NCBI GenBank assembly: GCA_948567375.1
Contig: OX419755.1
Coordinates: 72,792,944 to 72,856,943, forward strand
Source of the DNA: Lunularia cruciata
Taxonomy: Eukaryota > Streptophyta > Marchantiopsida > Lunulariales > Lunulariaceae
Reading direction: 5' to 3'
DNA: 64,000 nucleotides
Shown here piece after piece: positions 1 to 57,812 of the stretch (position 1 is its first letter; every line of letters begins with the position of its first letter). Made by a program: the position numbers and the translations under genes. The notes under the pieces were generated by a model. The model was not told where the DNA came from. It ran no database searches and worked only from the letters and a program-made list of their open reading frames with translations.

Positions 1-700
1 CATCACTCTCCCAAAGATCTCTACTCGTTGAGAACATGCGCTCACCCATATAGTTGGATCATCCAAGTCCAATACTATAGTAGCATCTCAACAAATGGTT
101 GTAGGTAAATCTAGATCTCGTCCATAGAGTAGAAAGTACAGAGAGAAGGATGCTAAGGAGGCTTGTTGGCTGAACCAATAGCCCATGGCCAACCAAGGTA
201 TTTGGAGATCCCAATCTCCCAAGTGGCCTCTCTGCAAACCATACTTTTGCAATCCTCTCTTCATTGTCTGGACCACTCTCTCTACTAAGCCATCTGCCTC
301 AGGGTGATCTCGGGAGGTAGTATGGTGATCAATCAAAGCCTTTTCACACAAGACCTGAAACTCCCCCAAGAACTTTGTACCCTGATCAGTCAAAACCTCA
401 GCTGGTGCACCAACATAACTAAGAGCTCGATCCACAAATGAGTAAGCTATCCCTTCACTAGACTTGTTAGGAAGTACCACCAACTCAATCCACTTGGAGA
501 AGTGCTCCACCATCACCAAGACATACTGATGATGTCTCACAGTCAGCGGTGAAGGTCCAAAAAAGTCCAAAATCCAATGGTAACCCAATCCCAAGGTAAC
601 CCAATCCCAATGGGTGTAACTGTGGTGTAGGAGCATTGAATGATGCTCTAACTCGGTCACAAACCACACATCTGGCAACAAATTGCTGTACCTCAATCTG
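1..700 (-). pseudogene. Integrase of element A (partial)
   Basis: Integrase joins retrotransposon cDNA to the host chromosome. Reading leftward, a zinc-binding CVVC pair lies at about 660-675, then the catalytic core with LDFFGP, TDQGTKFLGEF and DHPEADGLVERVVQTMKRG, giving the D, D and E positions of a DDE integrase. An open stretch of 202 codons covers 88-696. The zinc region and the core are in different frames, so at least one indel lies between them. The C-terminal part continues past position 1. The fold call rests on family motifs. Confidence 0.85.
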
Positions 701-1357
701 CATACCGTGCTACCAATAATGACTCTAGAGTAAGCTATATGTATGCTTTACTCCAAAATGTCCTAGCTCCTCATGAGCATGACGGACCAACTGTGGTCTC
801 TGAGATGGAAGCGGTACTACTCGCACTCTACCATTCTCCCATACATGCAAAAGGTGTCTACCCTCCAATTTGAACCATCTGGCTTGCTAAAGAACACGGT
901 CTCTCTCCTTGGCCCCAATTGTGCCACCCACATTACCAATGCAAAGATAGTCCATCACTAAGACATCATCATGAATGTCTTGCTGAATTGTACCAATATC
1001 TTCACTCTCTGGATCCATGACCTCAATAACTCCTCTTGTATGCTTTGAGCGAGATACCACCAAAGCCTCAGAAAATATACTAAGAAAGGTAGATGCATGC
1101 CAACCTGGCACCATCTCCTCATCTGTCTCATCATGCCAACGTGCTCCAGTCTGATCCTACTGGCTGGGACATGGGTTTCTACTCAACCCATCTACATCAC
1201 GGTTCACCACTCCAGGTCTGTGAAAAACCGTGAAATCATACTCTTGTAAAATTAGAGCCCATTGTGCAAGCTTCTTTGAAAGCTTATTGGACTCCATCAA
1301 CCACTTCAGTGGCTGATGATCAATGATTAGAGTGAAGGGGTTACTGAATAGGTAACA
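701..1357 (-). pseudogene. Decayed RNase H-integrase connection of element A
   Basis: This stretch lies between the recognisable RNase H and integrase domains and must hold the end of RNase H and the integrase N-terminal region. Only short open stretches remain and I see no clear motif. Short plus-strand open frames here look like chance. Confidence 0.5.
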
Positions 1358-2430
1358 TCAGAAATGTGCTACTGCCCAAACTGCTGCCAAGCATTCTCCC
1401 TCATATGAACTATACTTTGCCTCCGCTGAATTTTTGGAGCGACTAGCATAGGGCACCACAAACTTCCCCTCATCATCATGCTGGGTGAGCATCGCTCCAA
1501 GCCCCAACATACTCCAATCATTATGAACCTGAAATGGTCGTCCTCTTATCGGTCTCCTCAAAATAGGAGCAGATGTCAAGCTCTCCTTGAGCTCTACAAA
1601 AGCTCTCTTTTGCTCATCTCCCCAACACCACTCATGTGTAAGCTTAGTCAGCTTTGTCAAGGCCTTGGCAATGGCACTAAATCCTATAACATAGCAGCGA
1701 TAGAAGTTTGCCAACCCAAGAAATGCTCGCACTCTGCTCACATCTGTAGGCTGAGGAATACATGCAATAGCCTCCAGCTTGGTCTGTTGAACACCAAGTC
1801 CTCTAGGGTAGATAGTGTGACCCAAATACTCAACCTGCTTGTGGAAGAACCTACACTTCCCAAGATGTAATTTGAATCCATGAGATCTCAAACCTCTCAA
1901 ACACCTCCAACAACTATCTCTCATGCTCCTCCACAGTAGTGCTATAGACCAAAATGTCATCAATATAGCACCAAGCAAAATCCAATCCAACTAGGATCCT
2001 ATCCGTGACCCTTTGGAACTCAGCATGAGCATTCTTTAACCCAAACGGTAAGAACCTCCACTAATATAACACATCCTTGCCATGAGGATCAATAGCTCAT
2101 AATGCTATCTTGGACTTATCCTCCTCCTTGATTGGCAGTTGATGATATCCCACTCAAAGATCCAAAGTATTGAAGACCTTTGCATGCCCAATCGCATCAA
2201 AAATCTCCTCCAGTGTAGGCATGGCATACTGATCAGCCCTGGTCTGTTGGTTGATAGGACGGTAATCTCCACATATCCGCCTATTTGTGTTCTTGCCATG
2301 CATATCCTTCTTGGTTGGTATCACTATCACTGATGCATACTCTCCATGTGAAATCTCCACCAAACCAGCCTCAAAAAGGTCACTACTCAAGCTTTGAATC
2401 AATGTCCTCTCCATATCACCATATCGATAA
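1358..2430 (-). pseudogene. Reverse transcriptase and RNase H of element A
   Basis: RT starts near 2430. It shows the N-terminal palm (GDYRPINQQT near 2265, then the AMPTLEEIFDAIG helix) and ends with a YIDD catalytic box at 1956-1967. The thumb and connection follow (LGHTIYPRG, FLGLANFYR), then RNase H (PFQVHNDWSMLGLGAML; SYEGECLAAVWA). The RNase H first acidic residue appears as HND rather than the usual TDA. The region is split over at least two frames: the N-terminal part is in the gag-pro-MTase frame, and from about 1990 a 210-codon open stretch is in another. Family-typical order supports Ty3/gypsy. Confidence 0.88.
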
Positions 2431-2989
2431 GGATGTCAAAAAATTGGTGTTTTGCTAGTCAACTCAATCCATATACTAGGTCCCTTCAAAGCATCCAAAT
2501 CCTTCATATTGAAGGCAAAACAACTTGTGTGGCTCCTCAAGAACCTCCAAACCCGTCTCCAGTAAGCTTGGGTCCAAGATCTGGCTCCCAAGTATCCTTT
2601 GTAATTGTAATAGGAGTGGAAGACATACTAACTAGCTACTACATTGGGCCCTTAGGAGCAATAGTGTCATGCTCATGACCACTAGAGGTCCCAACCTCTA
2701 TGTGAAAAACTTGCTCTGTTATGGCTACAAGCTCCACACGTCCTCTAGTTGCATCCCAAATGGACCAAGGGTGTAATCTAAGTAGCCCACGCTCACCTGG
2801 ATGGACTCCAAGTAGACCACTCTCCATAGTAGCTATTGGTTGTGTCCCAAGAATACCATGTCCACTCGGTCCATCGCCCCAGCATGTGCCTGAATCGTCT
2901 TGATAGGCACTGAGCTCACAAGTGTCCGAGTAGTGATGCCTATCAAGCGCATCCTATGCTACTCTGCCAAGCCAAGGCTCATAATCCAG
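2431..2989 (-). pseudogene. Linker between MTase and RT of element A
   Basis: About 560 bp separate the last MTase motif from RT. A 62-codon open stretch at 2639-2827 is rich in Gly, His and Glu and matches no domain I know. In the intact ancestor this probably was polyprotein linker or an aspartic-protease-like remnant. No function is claimed. Confidence 0.4.
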
Positions 2990-3930
2990 GTCAAACAAAT
3001 CAGGTCCATAGCTTGACCTAACACTTGATGCCTAGTGCCTCTGACATTGCTGGAATAGCAGTTATACCTATGCAAAAACCCATCACCCGCACTCTCTCAT
3101 TGGCGTAGGGTCCACCAAATGCTATAACTATGAGTCCCAAACAAGTCCAAGTCCTCCCTCTCAAAAATCATGAGAGCTTGGGAAACTCGTGATTGTGGGA
3201 AATGCAGTTCTAGGCTATCCAACTAGGTTCACCACTGCTATAGATGACCTATCAGCCACTACCACTATTTGAGACTGACGCCCAACATCCAAGATGTCAT
3301 CAACAAGGATGTGGTCAAGTAGTTGAATCCCATCATATGCATGTTGTAAAACCTCTCCGGGTAAGAGGTTCGTCCACCAAAGACAGACAATGAGCCCGTG
3401 ATTGCACTCTGGCTGCATCCAACAATATAGCAAGTCCCATCCAAGAATGGACTTGATGTGTACTCACCACCACTCTGGTGCAAGAATCACCCATCAAAGG
3501 AACGTTCTCCAAAAAGTAAGCTGGGGAAATAGACTGATGAACCTAGAGATGTCTTAGTATCCGTAACATCTCCCAAAACACACCAGAACAACAATCCTGA
3601 AGACCCAAACCTCAGCCAGCACGTGTATGTCCTTGGCATAGCCATCCAAAAATCACCAAGTGAATAGGCCCATGTCTCTCCAAATCATGCGCCCCCAGTA
3701 AGGAAATGTTTGCTGGTAGGGCTTTTAAGTAACCTCTGACTACTGACACCGGTAATAACTCCAGATTCCGATAGGCTAAGTGTGCCACATGATGTAGAGA
3801 GACTCACCTAACATTCTCATCTCTCTCTACATACAAATACCTTTGTACTCGTATACCCGCCTATAATACCGCAACTAGTCCGGTGCTAAACCCACCAAAC
3901 AACTCCAATAGACATATCCCCTCTACTAGA
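2990..3930 (-). pseudogene. C5-cytosine DNA methyltransferase domain inside Ty3/gypsy pol (degenerate)
   Basis: The domain would methylate cytosine in DNA using S-adenosylmethionine. The motif order is that of C5 MTases: motif I LLELFGGFSTGL (3876-3911), an acidic YVERDE stretch (motif II position), motif IV-like FGWLCQG with the Cys codon at 3636-3638, motif VI LENVP (ENV codons at 3501-3509), motif VIII-like QSRAH (3390-3404), a conserved WWTNLLPGE then DDILDVGR block (3280-3380), and a motif X-like LGQAMDL (3001-3027). The usual Pro before the catalytic Cys is Leu, either decay or a family trait. Motifs I to VIII share the reading frame of the gag zinc knuckle and protease; a frameshift near 3384 and several TAG/TGA stops kill it. 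It is about 310 residues, placed between protease and RT. I recall MTase-bearing retrotransposons from Klebsormidium and Symbiodinium; I know of none described for a land plant. Confidence 0.85.
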
Positions 3931-4140
3931 TACTTCCAAGGAATGAGTGTGGTATGCAAAGGTGTCAAAGTAATAGACTCTGGAGGCTCATCCTCATGCT
4001 CATCTCCTGATGGTACAAAAGCTCCACTCCAAGCTTGTTGCACCAACTGATCTGCATGCTGCTACAATGCCTCCTCTGAACTCCACAATGGAACATTCAA
4101 GGTGGATGGAACAATCCCACTCTTACTCCAAATCCAATTG
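3931..4140 (-). pseudogene. Protease-MTase linker of element A
   Basis: An acidic stretch (GDEHEDEPPE) precedes the MTase motif I in the same frame, with an in-frame TAG at the position of a probable Gln codon just upstream. It looks like polyprotein linker. Confidence 0.45.
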
Positions 4141-4665
4141 ATCTCCTTTGGTACTGGAGTATCCTTTGCATGGGTTGTCTTCTCCAACAAGTCACCAGGC
4201 CAAGTAACTGCACCACTGAAAGCTAAAACTAATGTTGCCATGGTCCTGGACTATAGTGAGCCAAGACTGCCACTACTGAAGCGTACTGGTAGGCAACATA
4301 CCCATCCCTCACCAGACTGCCAACTTGGTCTATATGAGGCTATCTCCTCCCATCAGTCAATATTGAAACCCATGGGGTATAACACTGCTCCCCCAACTAG
4401 CACATCATATGACTCACCTATTGTCACAATAGCCTGAGCTCTCACCACCAAGCTATTAGTCGGATGACCAGGCTGAACTTGGACCACCAGCTCCCCACAT
4501 GTGATAAATTGTGTTGAACCACCACCTAGAGATGTCTGGATCTAAAATGGACACCTCTCCACATCGGTCTTCCGTAACTCTAGACCAACAACTACAACCT
4601 TCCCCAACATAAGGGGCTACGCACCTAAGTCTAACAAGATTCTTTGCAGTGTATAGACCTTCCCT
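4140..4665 (-). pseudogene. Aspartic protease-like domain of element A
   Basis: A retropepsin-like start ILLDLGA (Asp codon at 4629-4631) is followed, after a TAG at a probable Gln codon, by PLMLGK. Further on come ITCGELVVQVQPG and ESYDVLVGGAVLYPMGFNID, which resemble the second half of a retropepsin fold with its ILG-like turn. The classical Asp-Ser/Thr-Gly triad is Asp-Leu-Gly here. The domain follows gag in the same frame and precedes the MTase. Role by family: processing of the polyprotein. Confidence 0.65.
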
Positions 4666-6650
4666 AAAGATCCCACCAAGTGGAAAATCCCCCTTTGGTT
4701 ATCCAATAGGACAACACCATGTGTGAACCGCACTCTCTCAAAGGCCGGTCTAGTTGGCAACTCCTCCAATCTAGCCGTTGTTGCCTGCCATAAACCAATG
4801 GTTGCTAAACGGATCCCATGCTCCTCAACCAAGTCAGCTCTACTACAAACCACCTCTACTCTAGTAGTAGGAACCGCATCATCCCTACTCTCATAAAGCA
4901 TGGTAGCCAACCGGAACACTGGAGCTAGGTCAACTCCCAATGTAAACATGTAACTGGCTGAAAACAAAAGGCACCACATAATCAATTGAGCCGCTCCTAA
5001 CATTGTGCTAGACTTAGTCTGTGTAGTAGCAAGTAGCTGACTAGCAGGTAGTCCATCATGCTTTCCATCACCACCTACCACACCTGCATTGGGATGTCTA
5101 GGAATCATGGATGTTGTCTGTAATGCCTCAAATAGTGTGAAAGATTGGGGAAGTCTGACCTTTCTTCCAACCTCTCCTCTCTGTGGGTCCAACTCCATTG
5201 ATGCTCCTCTAGGTTTTGGAGCATGTACTGCACTCCTAGTCACTACTACATATGCATCCACATGAGCTGCTCCACACATGAAGTCCAAAGTATCTCTGTC
5301 ACCAACATATGAGGTAGAAGCCTCAACACTCAAATCTGATCTCCTTTGAGCAATGGCCATACTAGCCAATCTTTGCTCCAACTGCTCAATCCGAGTAGCC
5401 ATAGTTGTATCAAAAGTAAGGGTAGTTACTTCACCTCTACTAGGTATAGATCCTCTACCACCACCTCTACTAACTTGTCTTCCATGAACTAGAGCTCCTC
5501 TACTACCTGCCATAGCAGCCCTACCACTCTGTAACTCCGGGTGTAGGTCAAAGCATTGGTCACTAGTGTGACCAAATCTGTGGCAATGCTCACACTGCCT
5601 CTGTGCTGGCTATGATGCACCGGAGGTATTAGGTCCGCTTCCTTGAGTACACTCTCCTATGGTGAGGTCCACCACAAGTCCAACAAGCAACACCACTACT
5701 CACTGGCTACTGCTGACCCAAAAATGAAGGTAAGAGTCTAGCTCCACTAGGCCCTCCAATTGCTCCATAGGATCTGGGCTGTCCATCCTCAAAACCAATT
5801 GGCCTTGGTGCACTCTCCTGCACTCTAGAAGAAGTAATAGCTATGGATAAGGTCTCCCTACCAAATCTAGATATCACCACCCTCTCTTCCACCATGTTGA
5901 GCTCAATACGCCCAGCCAAACCAAAGATCATTGCCAAAGTAGGCAAAGTAGCCTATAACAACGTAGCATCACAAACTCTACATTGCGATTCCTTGTCTAG
6001 TATCCCATACCAAAACTGGACTACCTGGGCCTCAGTAACTCCTTGAGTGAAACTGATCAGCCGCCTCATGCAAGTGTATGCCTTGCGTAGGCTCTCTCCA
6101 GCCTTCCGTTGGAACTCTACAAGCTCCTTAGCTTGTCAATCCACACTCCTTGGTAGTTTTGCCTCAAACACAAGAAGAACTCCACCATGGGGTTAAACCT
6201 TGGTACCACACCACCTCCTACAGCAGTACCTCTACTCATGGTAACACTATCTCCAGCTAGTGCACCTCCATTAGCTCCACCAACACTACTTGAGCTAGAA
6301 CTTATAGGTACAGCCGATCTACTCTTGGCTAAAAAACTTGAAGTGATAGAGACATAGTTTGGAGACCAGTACTATCTCCATAACTCAATCTCCTCCAAAT
6401 GAGCTCTCCAGAACTCATGGTAGTCAACGGACCCTCCAAATTCTAAAACAACCCCTTCCATAACATGAAGGGCGTAAACAAAGTTGGGTTCAGCATCTAT
6501 TGTAGATCACACCAACTATCAAACTCCTAGATGAAGTCATCCAACTCAATGGTACCCATTGTACCAGAGTAATGCTTAGGGCCTTTGGAGGCCCCATAAA
6601 TCTTGTCCATGTCCCACAACAACGGTGCAAACACACCGTGCACTCTCAAC
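4666..6650 (-). pseudogene. Gag of element A with CCHC zinc knuckle
   Basis: Gag packages the element RNA. A perfect zinc knuckle CEHCHRFGHTSDQC (C-x2-C-x4-H-x4-C) lies at 5553-5594. The ORF continues from it in the same frame through a Ser/Gly/Arg-rich linker, a helix EQLEQRLASMAIAQ and on to the protease (298 open codons at 4617-5513). The capsid part, at about 5950-6620, includes YGASKGPKHYSGT and LDDF followed by FDSWCDLQ and is broken by stops. The same capsid sequence, on the other strand, flanks elements 2a and 3b, which defines copy B. Confidence 0.8.
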
Positions 6651-7222
6651 TGAATCAGCTCTTGTGTTGAACTCCAACTTAGAGTCAATCTCCTCCCTCA
6701 CTAAGACCTGAGATATAGGCTAATATCAAGCGTCATTCCAAGTAAAACCATTATATATTGTAGGGCTAACTCCTCTAGAATCCCCAACAAACTCTGTCGT
6801 GACAAAGTAACTGCAATTGCAACTGCAAATTGGAACCACAAACTACAACAGCAAGTCGTAACCGCAAGTACCCCACCAAGTGCCAACACCACCAAGTGCC
6901 AATACCAACTAAGCAACACGCTCTAATGTAACTCTAACCGAGATAACTACACTAGGGGAAAGTGCAACCTGTAAACTACCATCACAACATGCAGTCTCAC
7001 AATCTATAGGTCATCACTTCTTGCCTCACCAAAGAGGAACAAAAATAGTCTGACTGGTCATCACTCTAGCCTCACTACCGAGAGCACACCAGAACACCAA
7101 TGCTCAAAAGTCAAGGCACCTCACACAAACGTGGTGCACAAACAGGAAGTAGAGAATGGAGAGGGTCCAATCACAAGAATCTAAACAAAAACTCTCCATC
7201 TCATAAAACATCACGAGATTGA
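6651..7222 (-). other. 5' leader of element A
   Basis: Sequence between the primer binding site and the recognisable capsid. A 72-codon open stretch at 6701-6919 is low in complexity and probably not coding. Gag may begin within this stretch but I cannot fix the start. Confidence 0.4.
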
Positions 7223-7235
7223 CTCTGCCACCATT
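7223..7235 (-). other. Primer binding site of element A (degenerate)
   Basis: On the minus strand, right after the LTR end, the sequence reads AATGGTGGCAGAG. This is a decayed version of the plant initiator-Met tRNA site TGGTATCAGAGC, which is seen intact in families 2 and 3 here. Confidence 0.6.
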
Positions 7236-8531
7236 TGACATTTGACCTAAGAGAAGTTTGTATCTAAGTCCTAAGCTACCAAGATCACCAAGAATGTGAT
7301 CAAATTGCCTCTCCTAGCCAAAGCTACAGGTGTATAGATAACAGTGGATAACCATTAGGACAACAAGTAAGGGTGGACTAGTTGGCTAGGGCACCAATCT
7401 AAGAACAAGAGATATAGGGATCAAACTCTATTGCACACAATTTAGCAGTATGGGCAGATTTTTCCAACCAATGACCAAGATCTACTCTAAACTAGCTGGC
7501 TTGTTGGCCCTTCTAGGCCTTTGTAGCCTCTCATAGCCCTATGCCTTGAAGCCTCAAAATGCCAAAATTCAGCCAAATGAGGCCTTTCTTCTTGCCACTT
7601 TGAACCTCATCCAAAATCTCACAAAACTTCTCCAAACTTACAAAAGTCCTCCAAATTGGCAAAAGTCCTCCAAATCTGGCCAAAATCTGACATAAACCCT
7701 AAATTTAGTTGACAGCCAAATCCTATACTAACTCTTCACTCGAGCCAAATTGAAAACACAGGTTTCTCCAAATCACAAATTCATGAGAATAGCTTCCAAA
7801 CTCCACCTTCAATTTTACTTTTTGAGCCCAACTCGCAACAAATTGGTCATGCCTTCATCTCCTGAACTCAAAATCACAACCACTACTCAAAAATTGCTTC
7901 TTCTATGCTCAAAAATTGGCCAACACTTTTGCACATTGTGTGCCTTACTGCCAAATTTGCATCAAATAATGAGCTTCTGCACACCAAGGAGAAACTAAAC
8001 TTCAATCAAGTTACCAATGATCCACCAAGCTTGGAGATACCACCAACACTCAAAGTTCATGCATATGATTTCCTCTTGATCTCACTTCTTAGATGTAATC
8101 AGATTGTTTACAACTCCCTAATACACTAAACTTAGATCAGTACTTGATCTGTCACTCTATAAACTACCAACAATGGGGCACTGATTACAATCAAGCCACA
8201 TCCACTCTAGCTAAGAGAATCCAAGTGATGCTCATTGGCCTCTATCTACCATAGCTAAGAACTTGAAGACTCAACCTCAAAGAAGTGAGCTCTCGGGAGC
8301 TGCATTTCAAAAGTATACTCCTAGACTCAAGCTAGGTCTGAAACCCTAACGGTCTCGTTGATGGCACACTTGACAGTGCAAAGTGATGGTGGGCCCCACC
8401 ATGAAGTCAGTATCCTGAACACAAAATCTGACCATCGGAAAGTAGTCTCTAAGAAACTATTGAAATAACTCTAACTACTAGCACTGGAACTCTAGTGTCT
8501 GAGCTATGTAGATGTGACACTACAAATGGCA
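7236..8531 (-). repeat. 5' LTR of family 1 (element A)
   Basis: About 1.3 kb. Read on the plus strand it begins TGACATTTG and ends CAAATGGCA, an imperfect inverted terminal pair with TG..CA ends. Its last ~430 bp also occur at 56880-57320, including the block TGATGGCACAC and a GTGGGCC box, which confirms it as a repeat. No gene is visible; the short open frames at 7750-8129 lie within the LTR. Confidence 0.75.
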
Positions 8532-8996
8532 TGATAGTGCACATTGTGAGTCCACACCATTGTTGGGGGATATAGACAAGATTTATAGGCTTCCAAAGAC
8601 CCCAAGTGCTACTCTAGTATAATGGGTACCATTGAGTTGGATAATTTTACTTTGAAATTCAATAGTTAGTGTGATATGTAACAGATACAAAACCCAACTT
8701 TGTTCACACCTTTCATGGCATAGAAGGAGTTGTTTCAACACTTGGAGGGACCATTGATTGATGAATACCACAAATTCAAGAGAGCACACTTGGAGGAGAT
8801 TGAACTATGGAAATAATATTGATCTTCAAATTATATCTTCATTACTTCAAGCTCGGTTTCTAGAGGTAGTACATTAGTATCCACAAGTTCTAGCTCTAGT
8901 AGCATTAGTGTATCCAATGGTTGTGCACTTGTTAGAGATGGTGCTATTATAAGTAGAGGTACCAATACAAGAAGTGGTCTAATACTAGGTTCTAAC
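8532..8996 (+). mobile_element. Element B, gag segment 1 (family 1)
   Basis: Plus-strand family-1 gag homologous to the reverse complement of 6240-6650: shared blocks include GACAAGATTTAT, ACAATGGGTACCATTGAGTTGGAT-like and TAAGTTCTAGCTC-like sequence. It starts right after element A and is cut at 8996 by element 2a. Any part of B to the left lies beyond the window. Confidence 0.85.
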
Positions 8997-9479
8997 CATA
9001 ACAATATGGAGTTTGTAGGCGAGTTAGTTGAGATAAATGAAGTAGCAAGTAGGCCAAATTAGCCAAGAATTATAAAAGTATTCTAGAAGCATATAGGAAG
9101 ATACTTGGTACCTTCTAAGTATCAAGTAATTTGCATGCCAAATGGTGACTTCTAGGGAGAAGCTTCTTGGCTAACTTAGCTTGCATGCCAAGTAGGTGAC
9201 TTTTAGAAGGAAGTTTCCCGACTAGCTTAGTTTGCATGCCAAGTAGGCAGCTTCTAGAAGGAAGCTTCTCAAGAAGCTTCTTGGTTAGCTTGGCTTTCAT
9301 TCTAAGAAGGCAGATTTTAGGAAGCTTCATGAAAAGTTTCTCAAGAGCCTTGTATGCTCCCTATAGATACCAAAGCACAAGCTCATGCTAAACATTTGGA
9401 GTTTCTTTAATTCAAAAGTCTCAATGTGATCTTTTACTCCAATCTTCCATTCTCCTATTTCTCTCCTTGGTCTTTTATA
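8997..9479 (+). repeat. 5' LTR of element 2a
   Basis: 483 bp. The TG start has decayed to CA, and the end is TTTTATA where the family reads TTTTACA. It holds several GAAGCTTC palindromes (for example 9261-9268 and 9273-9280) and a TATA-like CTATAGATA near 9361. A primer site TTTGTATTAGAGC follows at 9480-9492. Confidence 0.85.
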
Positions 9480-13456: not shown

Positions 13457-14127
13457 TTAACCTTTTGGTGGAGTTCTTCCAATGCTTGAGATAAAACTAC
13501 CAAGGAGTGCAGACTGACAAGCCAAAGGCTTGCAAGAGTTTAACAAAAGGTTGGAGACGGCATATGCAAGCATACACATGAGAAAGTTGATCAATTTAAC
13601 TCAAGGAGTTATTGAGGCCTAAAAAATAAAGTTTTGGTATGCTGTACCAACAAGGAATTGCAACATAGAGTACAATATGGTATGTTGTTTTAAGCTATCT
13701 CATCAACTTGGCGGTGATCTTTAGATTGGAAAAGCACTTTGAAGTTAACATGGTGGCAAATCTAGATTTGGTAGAAAGACCTCATACACAACTTTTATTT
13801 CTTCTACAATGCACCACACCATGTCAGATTTTGTGGATAGAATGGATTGCTTTGAGATCATAGAGCAAGTAGAAGACCTAGTGCAAATAGACCCTTACCC
13901 TCATTTTTGGCTCAACAATAGCCAATGAGTGGAGGTGTTGCTTGTTGGACTTGTGGTTGACCCCACCACAAGAGAGAGTGCACCCAAGTAATGGGCATGA
14001 TACCTTTGGAGCACCTCAACAAACCTAAAAGCAACATGATCATAACCATATATTTTGTCACACTAGTGATCAATGGTTTGATTTACACTTGGAGTTGTAG
14101 AGTGGTAGGGCAGCCATGGCAAGTAGT
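13457..14127 (+). mobile_element. Element B, gag segment 2 (family 1)
   Basis: Resumes family-1 gag exactly where 2a interrupted it. It matches the reverse complement of about 5510-6205, including GGTGGAGTTCTTC and GGTGTTGCTTGTTGGAC and a decayed zinc-knuckle region (CACACTAGTGATCAATG). It is cut at 14127 by a family-3 LTR. Confidence 0.88.
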
Positions 14128-16519: not shown

Positions 16520-16893
16520 CCCCATGTCAAGGATGACAAGGTGGTAGAGGACCTACACTTGGTAGAAGCCAAGTACTTGCTCTTTCTTTTGATACAACAA
16601 TGGCTACTTGAACAATTGGAGCACATATTGGCTAGCATTGCTATAGCTCAAATGAGATCATACTCAAGTGTTGAGGTTTCTACTTTTGATATTGGTGATA
16701 GAGATATCATTGATTTCATGTATGGATAAGTATAGGTAGATGCATCCACTACAATGATTAAGAGTGTAGTATATGCTCCTTAGCATAGAGGAGCATCTAT
16801 GGAGTTGGACCCATAAAGAAGAGAGACTAGTAGATAGTTCAGACTTCTTGAGTCTTTCACACTTTGTGAAGCACAACAAATAACATCCATTGT
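16520..16893 (+). mobile_element. Element B, gag segment 3 (family 1)
   Basis: Family-1 gag resumes: TTTTGATACAACAATGGCTAC, a helix LEQLEHILASIAIAQ, GDRDIIDFMYG and MELDP, collinear with the element A ORF at 5145-5410. It stops at 16893 at the 5' LTR of element 2b. The left border with 3b is placed to within about 20 bp. Confidence 0.85.
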
Positions 16894-17340
16894 TGTAATG
16901 ATATGGAGTTAGTAGGCAAGTTAGCAAAGGCTACTAAGTTAGTAAAATAAGCCAAATATATGGTCTAAGAATATTCTAGAAGCATCTAGGAAGCTTCTTG
17001 GTCAAATGTTCTAGAAGTACTTTGGAAGCTTCTTAGTATCTTCTAAGGATTGGGTAACTTGCACATGAAGTTAATGGCTAGCTAGCTTGTACACCAAGAA
17101 GGTGGCTTCTTGAAGGAAGGTTCCTTGGAGACTTCTTGGGTAATTTAGATTTCACTCTAAGAAGGTGACTTTGAGAAGGAAGCTTCATTGGAGTCTTCTC
17201 AAGAAACTTTTGTTACTTTGCTATAAATACCAAAGCCCAAGCTCATACTAGGCATTTGAAGTTTCTCTCACTTTAGTATTTCCAATGTGATTTTCCATTC
17301 CAAACTTCCCTTCTCTTATTTCTCTCCTTAGTCTTTTATG
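16894..17340 (+). repeat. 5' LTR of element 2b
   Basis: 447 bp, starts TGTAATGATATGG and ends TTTTATG (family end TTTTACA). It is followed by the primer site TTGGTATTAGCG at 17341. TATA-like CTATAAATA lies near 17221. GAAGCTTC-type units are fewer than in 2d. Confidence 0.83.
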
Positions 17341-56077: not shown

Positions 56078-56769
56078 CCAACAAATAAGTAATTTCAAAT
56101 TGGTTTCAAAACACTTTGTACTTCCACTCTCCTCTTGAAACAGTCTCCAACATCTCCAACAAAGAGGCAACTGATTTTTCATAACACTCTCTAACAAATG
56201 ACAAACAAACAACTTCAACATGATTTCAAAATATTGTACTTCCCTTCTCCTCTTGAGGGCACACTCTCCTCTTGAATAGACAAGTTTGAACTTCTTGCAC
56301 TTCCAAAAACATCCCAAAATTGTGCCAGTTTGAATTTTGCCTTGTTTTCCTTTCACCTATTAACATAAAAAAATCCTTCTAAACATCCCAAAATGCTCTT
56401 GAACATTATTCTAACTCTCAAAATTTTGTCCTTCATACTATCCCAAAACTCCAAACTAATATGATACATCTCTTTTACTTGTCTTTGATCACTTCTCTTC
56501 TTCTTAAACATTTTGATAGACTATATATCAAGAAATAGCTTCAACCAAAACCCTTTTGTAGCATTTTTCCAAAATACTCTTTGATTTTTAGTTTTTTGAA
56601 AAACCTCTTTGAATCAAAGTTTTTCCATGAAATGTCTCAATTTAATTTTTTTTCTAACTCAATTTAGGTTTGAGGTATATTTACAAAAATATTTACATAT
56701 TACCAAAAAATTCAAATATATTTCTAGTATAAACTTATCTATCTTGTTCAAACACAATAGCAATGTCTT
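56078..56769. other. Stretch without recognised genes
   Basis: T-rich and A-rich runs, with two near-repeats around CTCTCCTCTTGAA (56130 and 56265). No domain seen. Confidence 0.4.
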
Positions 56770-56877
56770 GTCATGCATATATAAATCACTACACAACATA
56801 TATCACTATCAACATCACACACTATATATGCACAACTCACACATAAGTCATACATGGACTCTCAAGTGCCACAATAA
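56770..56877 (+). repeat. 105-bp direct repeat, left copy
   Basis: CATGCATATATA to CTCTCAAGTGCCACAAT, closely matching 57331-57433 (shared CAACATCACACACTATA and ATGCACAACTCACACAT). Confidence 0.85.
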
Positions 56878-56879
56878 TC

Positions 56880-57320
56880 AAAATCAATTTATTCACAATT
56901 CATATCATACTCAATTAGATCAACTTGATCTATCACTCACCAATTTGCCAACAACTAGATACTTATTACAGTCAAGCCACACCCACTCTAGCTAAGAGAC
57001 TCCAAGTGACACTCACCGGCCTCTTTCCACCATAGCTAGGAACTTGAAGGCTCAATATCAGAGAAGTGAGCTCTCTAGAGCTGCACTTCAAAAGTATACT
57101 CCCAGGTCTTGACCTAGATCTCCAACCTAATGGTCTTGTTGATGGCACACCCGATGATGTGAATGGTGCAAGTGACGGTGGGCCTCACCATGTAGTCAAT
57201 ACTCCAAACACAAAATCTGACCGTCAACAAGTAGTCTATGAGTAATTGCCAAAATACTTCTCACTACCAACACTACTACTCTAGAGTCTGAGTAATCTAG
57301 GTGCGATACTACAAATGTCA
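56880..57320 (-). repeat. Family-1 LTR fragment
   Basis: About 440 bp collinear with 8100-8531 (GAGAAGTGAGCTCTC, TTCAAAAGTATACTCC, GTTGATGGCACAC). It ends CAAATGTCA at 57320, the LTR terminus. The other two thirds of the LTR are absent. Confidence 0.85.
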
Positions 57321-57330
57321 TGATAGCTAT

Positions 57331-57433
57331 CATGCGTATATACGTCGCTACACAACATACATTGATGTCAACATCACACACTATAGATGCACAACTCACA
57401 CATGAGTCATACATGGTCTCTCAAGTGCCACAA
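57331..57433 (+). repeat. 105-bp direct repeat, right copy
   Basis: Partner of 56770-56877. It overlaps a 16-bp perfect palindrome CATGATAGCTATCATG (57319-57334) at the LTR edge. Confidence 0.85.
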
Positions 57434-57720
57434 TTGCCATCCTAGTTGATGGTTAGGTCCTTCTAACTCCAAATAGCCATCTACTCCAAATATATGGCAT
57501 ACCTTATGGTGGGCAAAAGATCAAGAGGCCGGGTGCTATCGAGCCACACCATTAGTCGTATGTCTACATTCTATACCATGTAAAGGATGAAATAGCTATA
57601 GGTCAAGTACATCTAGGACACAACCACTATCCTTGAGGAACCACCATGAGGCAAGGAGGAAAACATGGCATATGCCATCCTCTTGAATAGCTATCCCACA
57701 CTAATATAATAGCAACTCCA
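57434..57720. other. Stretch without recognised genes
   Basis: Nothing recognised. Confidence 0.4.
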
Positions 57721-57812
57721 CCAAAAGAGCCGCATAATATACACCGTAAGCCTACCTATAGGCTATACCTACCTACCAAAAGAGCCGCATAATATACACC
57801 ATAAGCCTACCT
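57721..57812 (+). repeat. 37-bp direct repeat at the truncation point of 3c
   Basis: CCAAAAGAGCCGCATAATAT plus ACACC, one variable base and TAAGCCTACCT, at 57721-57757 and 57776-57812. One base differs. The second copy abuts the point where 3c RNase H stops. Confidence 0.9.

Follow-up and report, generated by a model that had tools for sequence, protein, structure and literature searches.

Why does a retrotransposon keep a cytosine methyltransferase (MTase) of its own across thousands of places in a plant genome, when plants silence retrotransposons by cytosine methylation? The paradox arises from a 64,000-nucleotide stretch of the liverwort Lunularia cruciata (contig OX419755.1, positions 72,792,944 to 72,856,943, forward strand; hereafter the window), the left end of which holds a decayed copy of such an element. 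The element is almost certainly a Ty3/Gypsy retrotransposon with a DNMT3-type MTase in its first frame (gag-protease-MTase), ahead of reverse transcriptase (RT), RNase H, integrase (INT) and a PHD finger. On balance, we favour an overall explanation, putative as a whole, that joins this MTase-carrying family with a leaky UAG stop codon and self-marking of the element's complementary DNA (cDNA). As far as the open-licence literature shows, the land-plant hosts, the thousands of genomic places, the MTase upstream of a putatively leaky stop and the PHD finger are new, as is a hint of common origin for the streptophyte elements.

A methyltransferase within a high-copy Ty3/Gypsy family

In the initial annotation, C5-MTase motifs were read from the minus strand of 2990-3930 and placed between the protease and RT domains of a Ty3/gypsy element. 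Translation places the motifs in three frames: LLELFGGFSTGL, FGWLCQG, YFLENVP and QSRAH in the first, WWTNLLPGE...DDILDVGR in the second and LGQAMDL in the third. A profile of 318 positions, built from relatives with the window copy excluded, matches nine window pieces colinearly from 3923 to approximately 2977, covering profile positions 1-317 (E-values 7e-16, 2e-13, 2e-13, 1e-5, 5e-4, 6e-4, 9e-4, 0.0015 and 0.07), while two unrelated window pieces gave E-values of 5 and 7 and five 3-mer shuffles reached 8.3 and 9.4 at best. Alignment with L008, a better-preserved copy of the same family, confirms the position between protease and RT, and over the MTase the two are identical at 851 of 960 bases (88.6%), with eight stops in the L008 frame and three small deletions in the window copy. 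In the proposed comparison with the Pfam family PF00145, single stop-free window pieces have no match and L008 lies above the cut-off; a better-preserved copy thus gives the significant match whose absence would have been refuting. The shortfall of the single pieces is what could favour a chance motif string or a misread frame, an explanation with virtually no chance of being correct given the nine colinear pieces, controls near an E-value of 8 and the identity to an open copy; we rejected it, the open copies refuting it.

Across 8,671 alignment columns the window copy is 87.9% identical to L008, and it is a dead member of a high-copy liverwort Ty3/Gypsy family. Its parts, in window coordinates and including two open reading frames (ORFs), are as follows.

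1..8534, then approximately 1.3 kb left of the window to C1:72791641, minus strand: decayed MTase-carrying Ty3/Gypsy copy, from the L008 alignment, with the left end read in L045
8096..8534, minus strand: 5' terminal repeat A1, corresponding to L008 67-512
5553..5594, minus strand: gag zinc-knuckle-like motif CEHCHRFGHTSDQC, found by eye in translation, without a Pfam match
4599..4637, minus strand: protease active-site region LLDLGA*PLMLGK (LLDSGAQPLMLGK in L008), found by eye in the translations, without a Pfam match
2977..3923, minus strand: C5-MTase domain, DNMT3-type, interrupted by stops and frame changes, from nine colinear profile pieces and identity to L008
2639..2641, minus strand: in-frame TAG separating ORF1 from ORF2, from alignment with 14 loci that all have TAG; the codons that follow are decayed in the window copy
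1361..2414, minus strand: RT and RNase H, by Pfam over 1361-1990 and by colinearity with L008 over the remainder
63..845, minus strand: integrase core region, by colinearity with L008 7868-8647

In the Pfam scan of 1361-1990, RT_RNaseH_2 was found at 3.4e-25 and RT_RNaseH at 2e-14, with RVT_1 at 0.0026, under its cut-off. The copy's A1 matches its own second copy of the repeat, A2, at 373 of 439 bases, and its flanks, GCAC and ACAC, agree at three of four bases. Precomputed aspartyl-protease domains are present in some relatives (PF13650 in P0019).

The family extends across the genome. A profile search of 566 Mb in 74 contigs scored 123 of 2,161 PF00145 candidates; all 123 exceed the cut-off, some of them host genes, and the matches mostly cover profile positions near 48-120, many within long open frames. 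Twenty loci were extracted, and 14 of these are element loci, chosen from the PF00145 matches for long open frames and hence no random sample. All 14 carry the MTase, contrary to the second refuting outcome named in the initial annotation, its absence from every other family copy; the frame is open in ten for the MTase, seven for RT, nine for RNase H and six for integrase. A 28-base pattern flanking the stop between the two frames has 2,053 and 2,072 genomic matches (4,125 in all) with up to three mismatches, a tolerance under which a match is no proof of an intact TAG, and zero matches when reversed. If all 4,125 places were full 10-kb copies, they would fill approximately 7% of the genome, though many will be fragments. 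A local one-off fusion, considered as a candidate, is ruled out by the 123 scored matches together with the pattern matches. A 580 Mb assembly of L. cruciata with Ty3/Gypsy bursts has been described, in a report whose main text does not contain the word methyltransferase (PMC9985172).

L008 gives the domain order of the family. Two zinc-knuckle-like motifs and the protease LLDSGAQPLMLGK, both recognized by eye and without a Pfam match, precede the MTase, the TAG and a frame of 1,037 amino acids. This second frame encodes RT, RNase H, Integrase_H2C2 (2.6e-18), the rve integrase (1.2e-12) and a C-terminal PHD finger (2.2e-10), with RT and RNase H before the integrase as expected for Ty3/Gypsy. 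Membership in DIRS/PAT was rejected, the L008 frame having rve and H2C2 integrase domains and not a tyrosine recombinase.

The land-plant origin of the DNA, also anticipated in the initial annotation, is supported by the exon of the host DRM gene (L019). Among the best 120 of 1,019 matches, its nearest are three Riccia sorocarpa proteins (63-74%), followed by Sphagnum and Calypogeia; by this exon the host is a complex thalloid liverwort.

The stop between the frames and the split terminal repeats

In L008, ORF1 and ORF2 share one frame divided by a single TAG, and TAG stands at this boundary in 14 of 14 loci. The sequence CARYYA follows it directly in 13 of the 14 (the exception is L017), and the open in-frame extension beyond the stop reaches 1,037 amino acids in both L008 and L010. 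CARYYA has been documented as a signal for readthrough when it follows a stop, and tobacco mosaic virus is among the plant viruses for which it is important (PMC4132726). Because the hexamer is expected once in 512 and the extension is long, and not because of conservation, these features are read as evidence that the UAG, in a putatively leaky context, probably allows readthrough. Several gene models, P0004, P0006 and P0009 from Marchantia and P0022 from Sphagnum, extend through the MTase to RT and lack stretches of the linker present in other copies; introns have likely been modelled over the stop in them.

The ends of the element are unusual for its class. The full 5' repeat A1, starting TGTCACGCC, was found in 11 of the 14 loci, and a B1-A2-B2 arrangement terminating in ACGACA forms the 3' end in 13 of them, so that a split order, A-coding-B-A-B, replaces the two like terminal repeats expected for a long terminal repeat retrotransposon. 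We file the family as Gypsy because of its gene content, the repeat order being atypical. The termini read TGTC...GACA, and of the nine copies whose flanks were read on both sides, seven have a 4-bp target-site duplication (L018 being counted with the element start moved one base later), the two without it being L010 and L016. Identity between A1 and A2 across ten copies ranges from 90.3% to 99.7%, and the upper values indicate that some insertions are recent.

At the joint of B1 and A2 lies a palindrome, GACA-GC-TGTC (L008:9349-10000 and other loci), with AGGGGGG directly before B1. The split repeats and the palindromic joint would fit a circle with two repeats that is opened internally: reverse transcription would yield B-A repeats, and the circularized DNA could then be opened by the rve integrase at the palindrome to give A-coding-B-A-B. 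The usual primer-binding string for initiator methionine transfer RNA is absent in L008, where a partial resemblance occurs. At the expected primer-binding position, the joint of A1 and the internal region (L008 ~505-520), there is an inverted repeat, TCTGAT-TAC-ATCAGA.

Relatives and the origin of the enzyme

Two protein searches returned 48 and 44 records, 91 of them distinct. The first held 15 records from Marchantia polymorpha and one from Sphagnum, and the second 36 from Closterium, two from Klebsormidium and one from the chlorophyte Monoraphidium; the remainder of both are metagenomic. The initial annotation knew of no such fusion in land plants, a statement that does not stand as worded given the Marchantia and Sphagnum records, though no report of these elements was found in the open-licence literature. 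As M. polymorpha is a model liverwort, the function of such enzymes becomes directly testable.

The precedents named in the initial annotation were Klebsormidium and Symbiodinium. The former holds, as KnitGypsy-Dnmt3 of Klebsormidium nitens is a retrotransposon-borne DNMT in a Gypsy element (de Mendoza et al. 2018; PMC5890265), and the Symbiodinium cases are long interspersed nuclear elements (LINEs) and DIRS elements, not Gypsy (PMC5890265). Retrotransposon DNMTs are reported again for streptophytes and dinoflagellates in a 2025 paper (PMC12344493), and for a Gypsy-borne MTase an algal case is the only one found in print in the open-licence literature.

KnitGypsy-Dnmt3 and the Lunularia family share the Gypsy domain set, an unrearranged DNMT3-type domain, a DIRS-like repeat order and signs of purifying selection (PMC5890265). 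The repeats of the algal element are reported to be arranged like those of a DIRS element, the order A-coding-B-A-B being spelled out for SymbioDIRS (PMC5890265), and the Klebsormidium protein P0089 has the same PR-MTase-RT-INT order as the Lunularia family (PR, protease). The Lunularia family differs in having a land-plant host rather than an alga, in occupying far more genomic places and in forming distinct clades from Klebsormidium in both the MTase and RT trees. Its MTase lies in ORF1 before a conserved UAG, whereas that of Klebsormidium lies in the Pol frame (PMC5890265) and the model P0089 reads through; its PHD finger is unmentioned for Klebsormidium in the main text of PMC5890265 and was not found in the partial record P0089. 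Because the TAG splits MTase from Pol in 14 of 14 loci, we regard the family as a relative or variant of KnitGypsy-Dnmt3 and not as a strict member.

SymbioDIRS-Dnmt3 and SymbioLINE-Dnmt of Symbiodinium are also retroelements with DNMTs, and SymbioDIRS-Dnmt3 shares A-coding-B-A-B (PMC5890265); they use a tyrosine recombinase or LINE machinery, in contrast to the rve integrase of the Lunularia family. The Marchantia polymorpha and Sphagnum fallax proteins (for example, P0002 and P0022) have the same PR-MTase layout, with MTase identities of 72% at best for Marchantia and 50% for Sphagnum; these records are gene models, filed as hypothetical or similar and known here as proteins alone. The host DNMT3 and DRM genes encode DNMT3-related catalytic domains, like the element, but the motif order of the host DRM is rearranged and that of the element MTase is canonical. 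The DNMT3-like exon lies at L020:4841-5389 (minus strand; DNMT3C, 3e-16) and the DRM exon at L019:4731-5942 (minus strand).

The relatives follow two layouts. The named streptophytes read PR-MTase-RT(-INT), as do some of the metagenomic proteins; RT-MTase-INT(-PHD) is seen in many metagenomic proteins, and RT-MTase in Monoraphidium. In most of P0023-P0044 (metagenomic) and in P0087 (Monoraphidium), the MTase sits between RNase H and integrase, several of them with a PHD finger.

The MTase tree has 75 rows (72 of the 91 proteins, those with sufficient coverage, and three of ten Lunularia copies; three Marchantia rows are wrongly labelled meta). Liverworts, Sphagnum and seven metagenomic proteins cluster with support 99/97, and Closterium, Klebsormidium and the RT-MTase-INT group are separate from this cluster. 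In the RT tree (43 rows, being 41 proteins and two Lunularia copies, with just four bryophyte-type rows) the streptophyte side is split from the RT-MTase-INT side at 100/97, and the Lunularia copies and Marchantia (100/100) are joined by Closterium at 92/74. Trees with the algal elements had been proposed in the initial annotation: the streptophyte groups recur in both, while P0048 changes position and few bryophyte-type RT rows are available. The recurrence hints that the streptophyte elements may share one origin, and the congruent groups call into question the view of the Klebsormidium capture as a separate lineage event. Sphagnum groups beside Marchantia, not outside both liverworts (98/78), which may reflect either transfer or noise due to a gapped gene model.

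In a tree with host and phage enzymes, over a 144-column part of the domain, 35 retroelement MTases fall on one side of a branch and 18 host and phage rows on the other (79/93), with the viral-contig sequence L052 drawn adjoining the 35. This is suggestive only of a single capture behind the retroelement MTases. Viral contigs carry distant MTases (best segments 22-47% identical; 80 of 196 relatives kept), and one 69-residue piece queried against plasmids gave no match.

Methylation and the role of the element's enzyme

The enzyme appears to have been maintained. Motifs I, IV, VI, VIII and X stand in canonical order, the domain is nearest DNMT3 in sequence and fold, the catalytic CQG and the motif VI and VIII residues are invariant across 17 relatives, and the motifs are retained from Klebsormidium and Closterium through Marchantia. 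In the chosen copies the ratio of non-synonymous to synonymous polymorphism (pN/pS) is 0.44 for the MTase, 0.36 for RT and 0.42 for integrase. Animal DNMT3A/B carry ADD and PWWP domains; no Pfam family was found in the 700 residues of the L008 ORF1 frame before the MTase, a frame that is not full length, or in the tail after it.

Stops within the MTase in four of the 14 chosen loci, together with the dead window copy, could suggest that the domain is a passenger with no selected function. The retention of motifs from algae to liverworts argues against this, as does the decay of the other domains, RT being open in seven loci and integrase in six, so that MTase decay is not special, though selection of loci by MTase matches favours the MTase; we consider it highly improbable. 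Given that the fold is retained, the domain could act without catalysis, through DNA binding or multimerization, as DNMT3L does. The invariant catalytic and motif residues speak against such a role, which is improbable.

If the UAG is leaky, most of the product would end there, and the MTase would be made in approximately Gag amounts and packed with Gag; a minority readthrough product would supply RT, integrase and the PHD finger. The position before the stop, at the Gag rather than the Pol level, thus offers a concrete and testable mechanism, in which the MTase would methylate the cDNA of its own element, either ahead of integration or during it, new copies would arrive marked and host CG and CHG maintenance would then take over. 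That cDNA methylation is the main role of the MTase has, we judge, a little short of an even chance. The bolder proposal, that one DNMT3 capture by Gypsy predated the divergence of land plants from streptophyte algae and has been kept as a packaged self-methylation system (leaky UAG, Gag-level MTase, cDNA methylated in the particle, insertion already methylated), is tentative and, as a whole, rather doubtful.

Several results weigh against the favoured explanation. The pN/pS of the linkers, 0.52 and 0.59, is just slightly above that of the MTase, the copies compared were selected for good MTase matches, and the catalytic-loop block 641-650 of the structure model has a predicted local distance difference test score of 50. 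Conservation of the TAG context is uninformative alone, neighbouring columns being 98.9% alike, and no RNA structure stands out 3' of the stop (z 0.16). KnitGypsy-Dnmt3 gave no methylation in yeast, a result that its authors regard as inconclusive (PMC5890265). The excess of C/T differences at CG and CHG that marks the window copy is equally present in five MTase-free repeat pairs of the window (CG 50-75%, CHG 44-75%, CHH 28-37%), in a comparison of small counts that is unpolarized and unmatched for age.

Relative to L008, the window copy has C>T changes at 124 of 411 CG, 191 of 786 CHG and 138 of 2,533 CHH sites. Because the MTase-free repeats share the bias, the decay suggests host CG and CHG methylation, and a footprint of self-methylation, which the initial annotation had suggested as a way to hide the element or preserve its DNA, was dropped as support. 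SymbioDIRS enzymes methylated CG (PMC5890265).

Two further roles remain to be set beside cDNA marking. In copy-number control, the MTase would work in trans, its targets being resident copies or chromatin close by, damping its own family so that the host tolerates the element. This is among the roles proposed in the discussion of PMC5890265, and the PHD finger could steer integration toward certain chromatin; the 4,125 pattern places and the A1/A2 identities of up to 99.7% show no obvious restraint, and we think it unlikely. Alternatively, the methyl mark might shield the cDNA against a host nuclease or deaminase, or the enzyme might act on RNA, rather than prepare silencing. Both options are discussed in PMC5890265, but no plant defence of this kind against retroelement cDNA came to light, though no search was aimed at one; together the two options are quite unlikely in our estimation.

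The CG- and CHG-biased C>T decay, scarce at CHH, extends over window 1-7300 and over repeats at 9-31, 55 and 61 kb, with or without an MTase. Older family fragments, 71-76% identical, flank the window copy at 8532-8997, 13457-14127 and 16540-16894 (plus strand) and at L045:58-469, and since these pieces lie on both sides, the window copy sits inside the broken remains of an older member of its own family. Another 3' end fragment of the family (B1-A2-B2), approximately 82% identical, lies at 56769-57753 (minus strand), and other repeats, 67-83% alike and in both orientations, are densely arrayed over 8999-31283.
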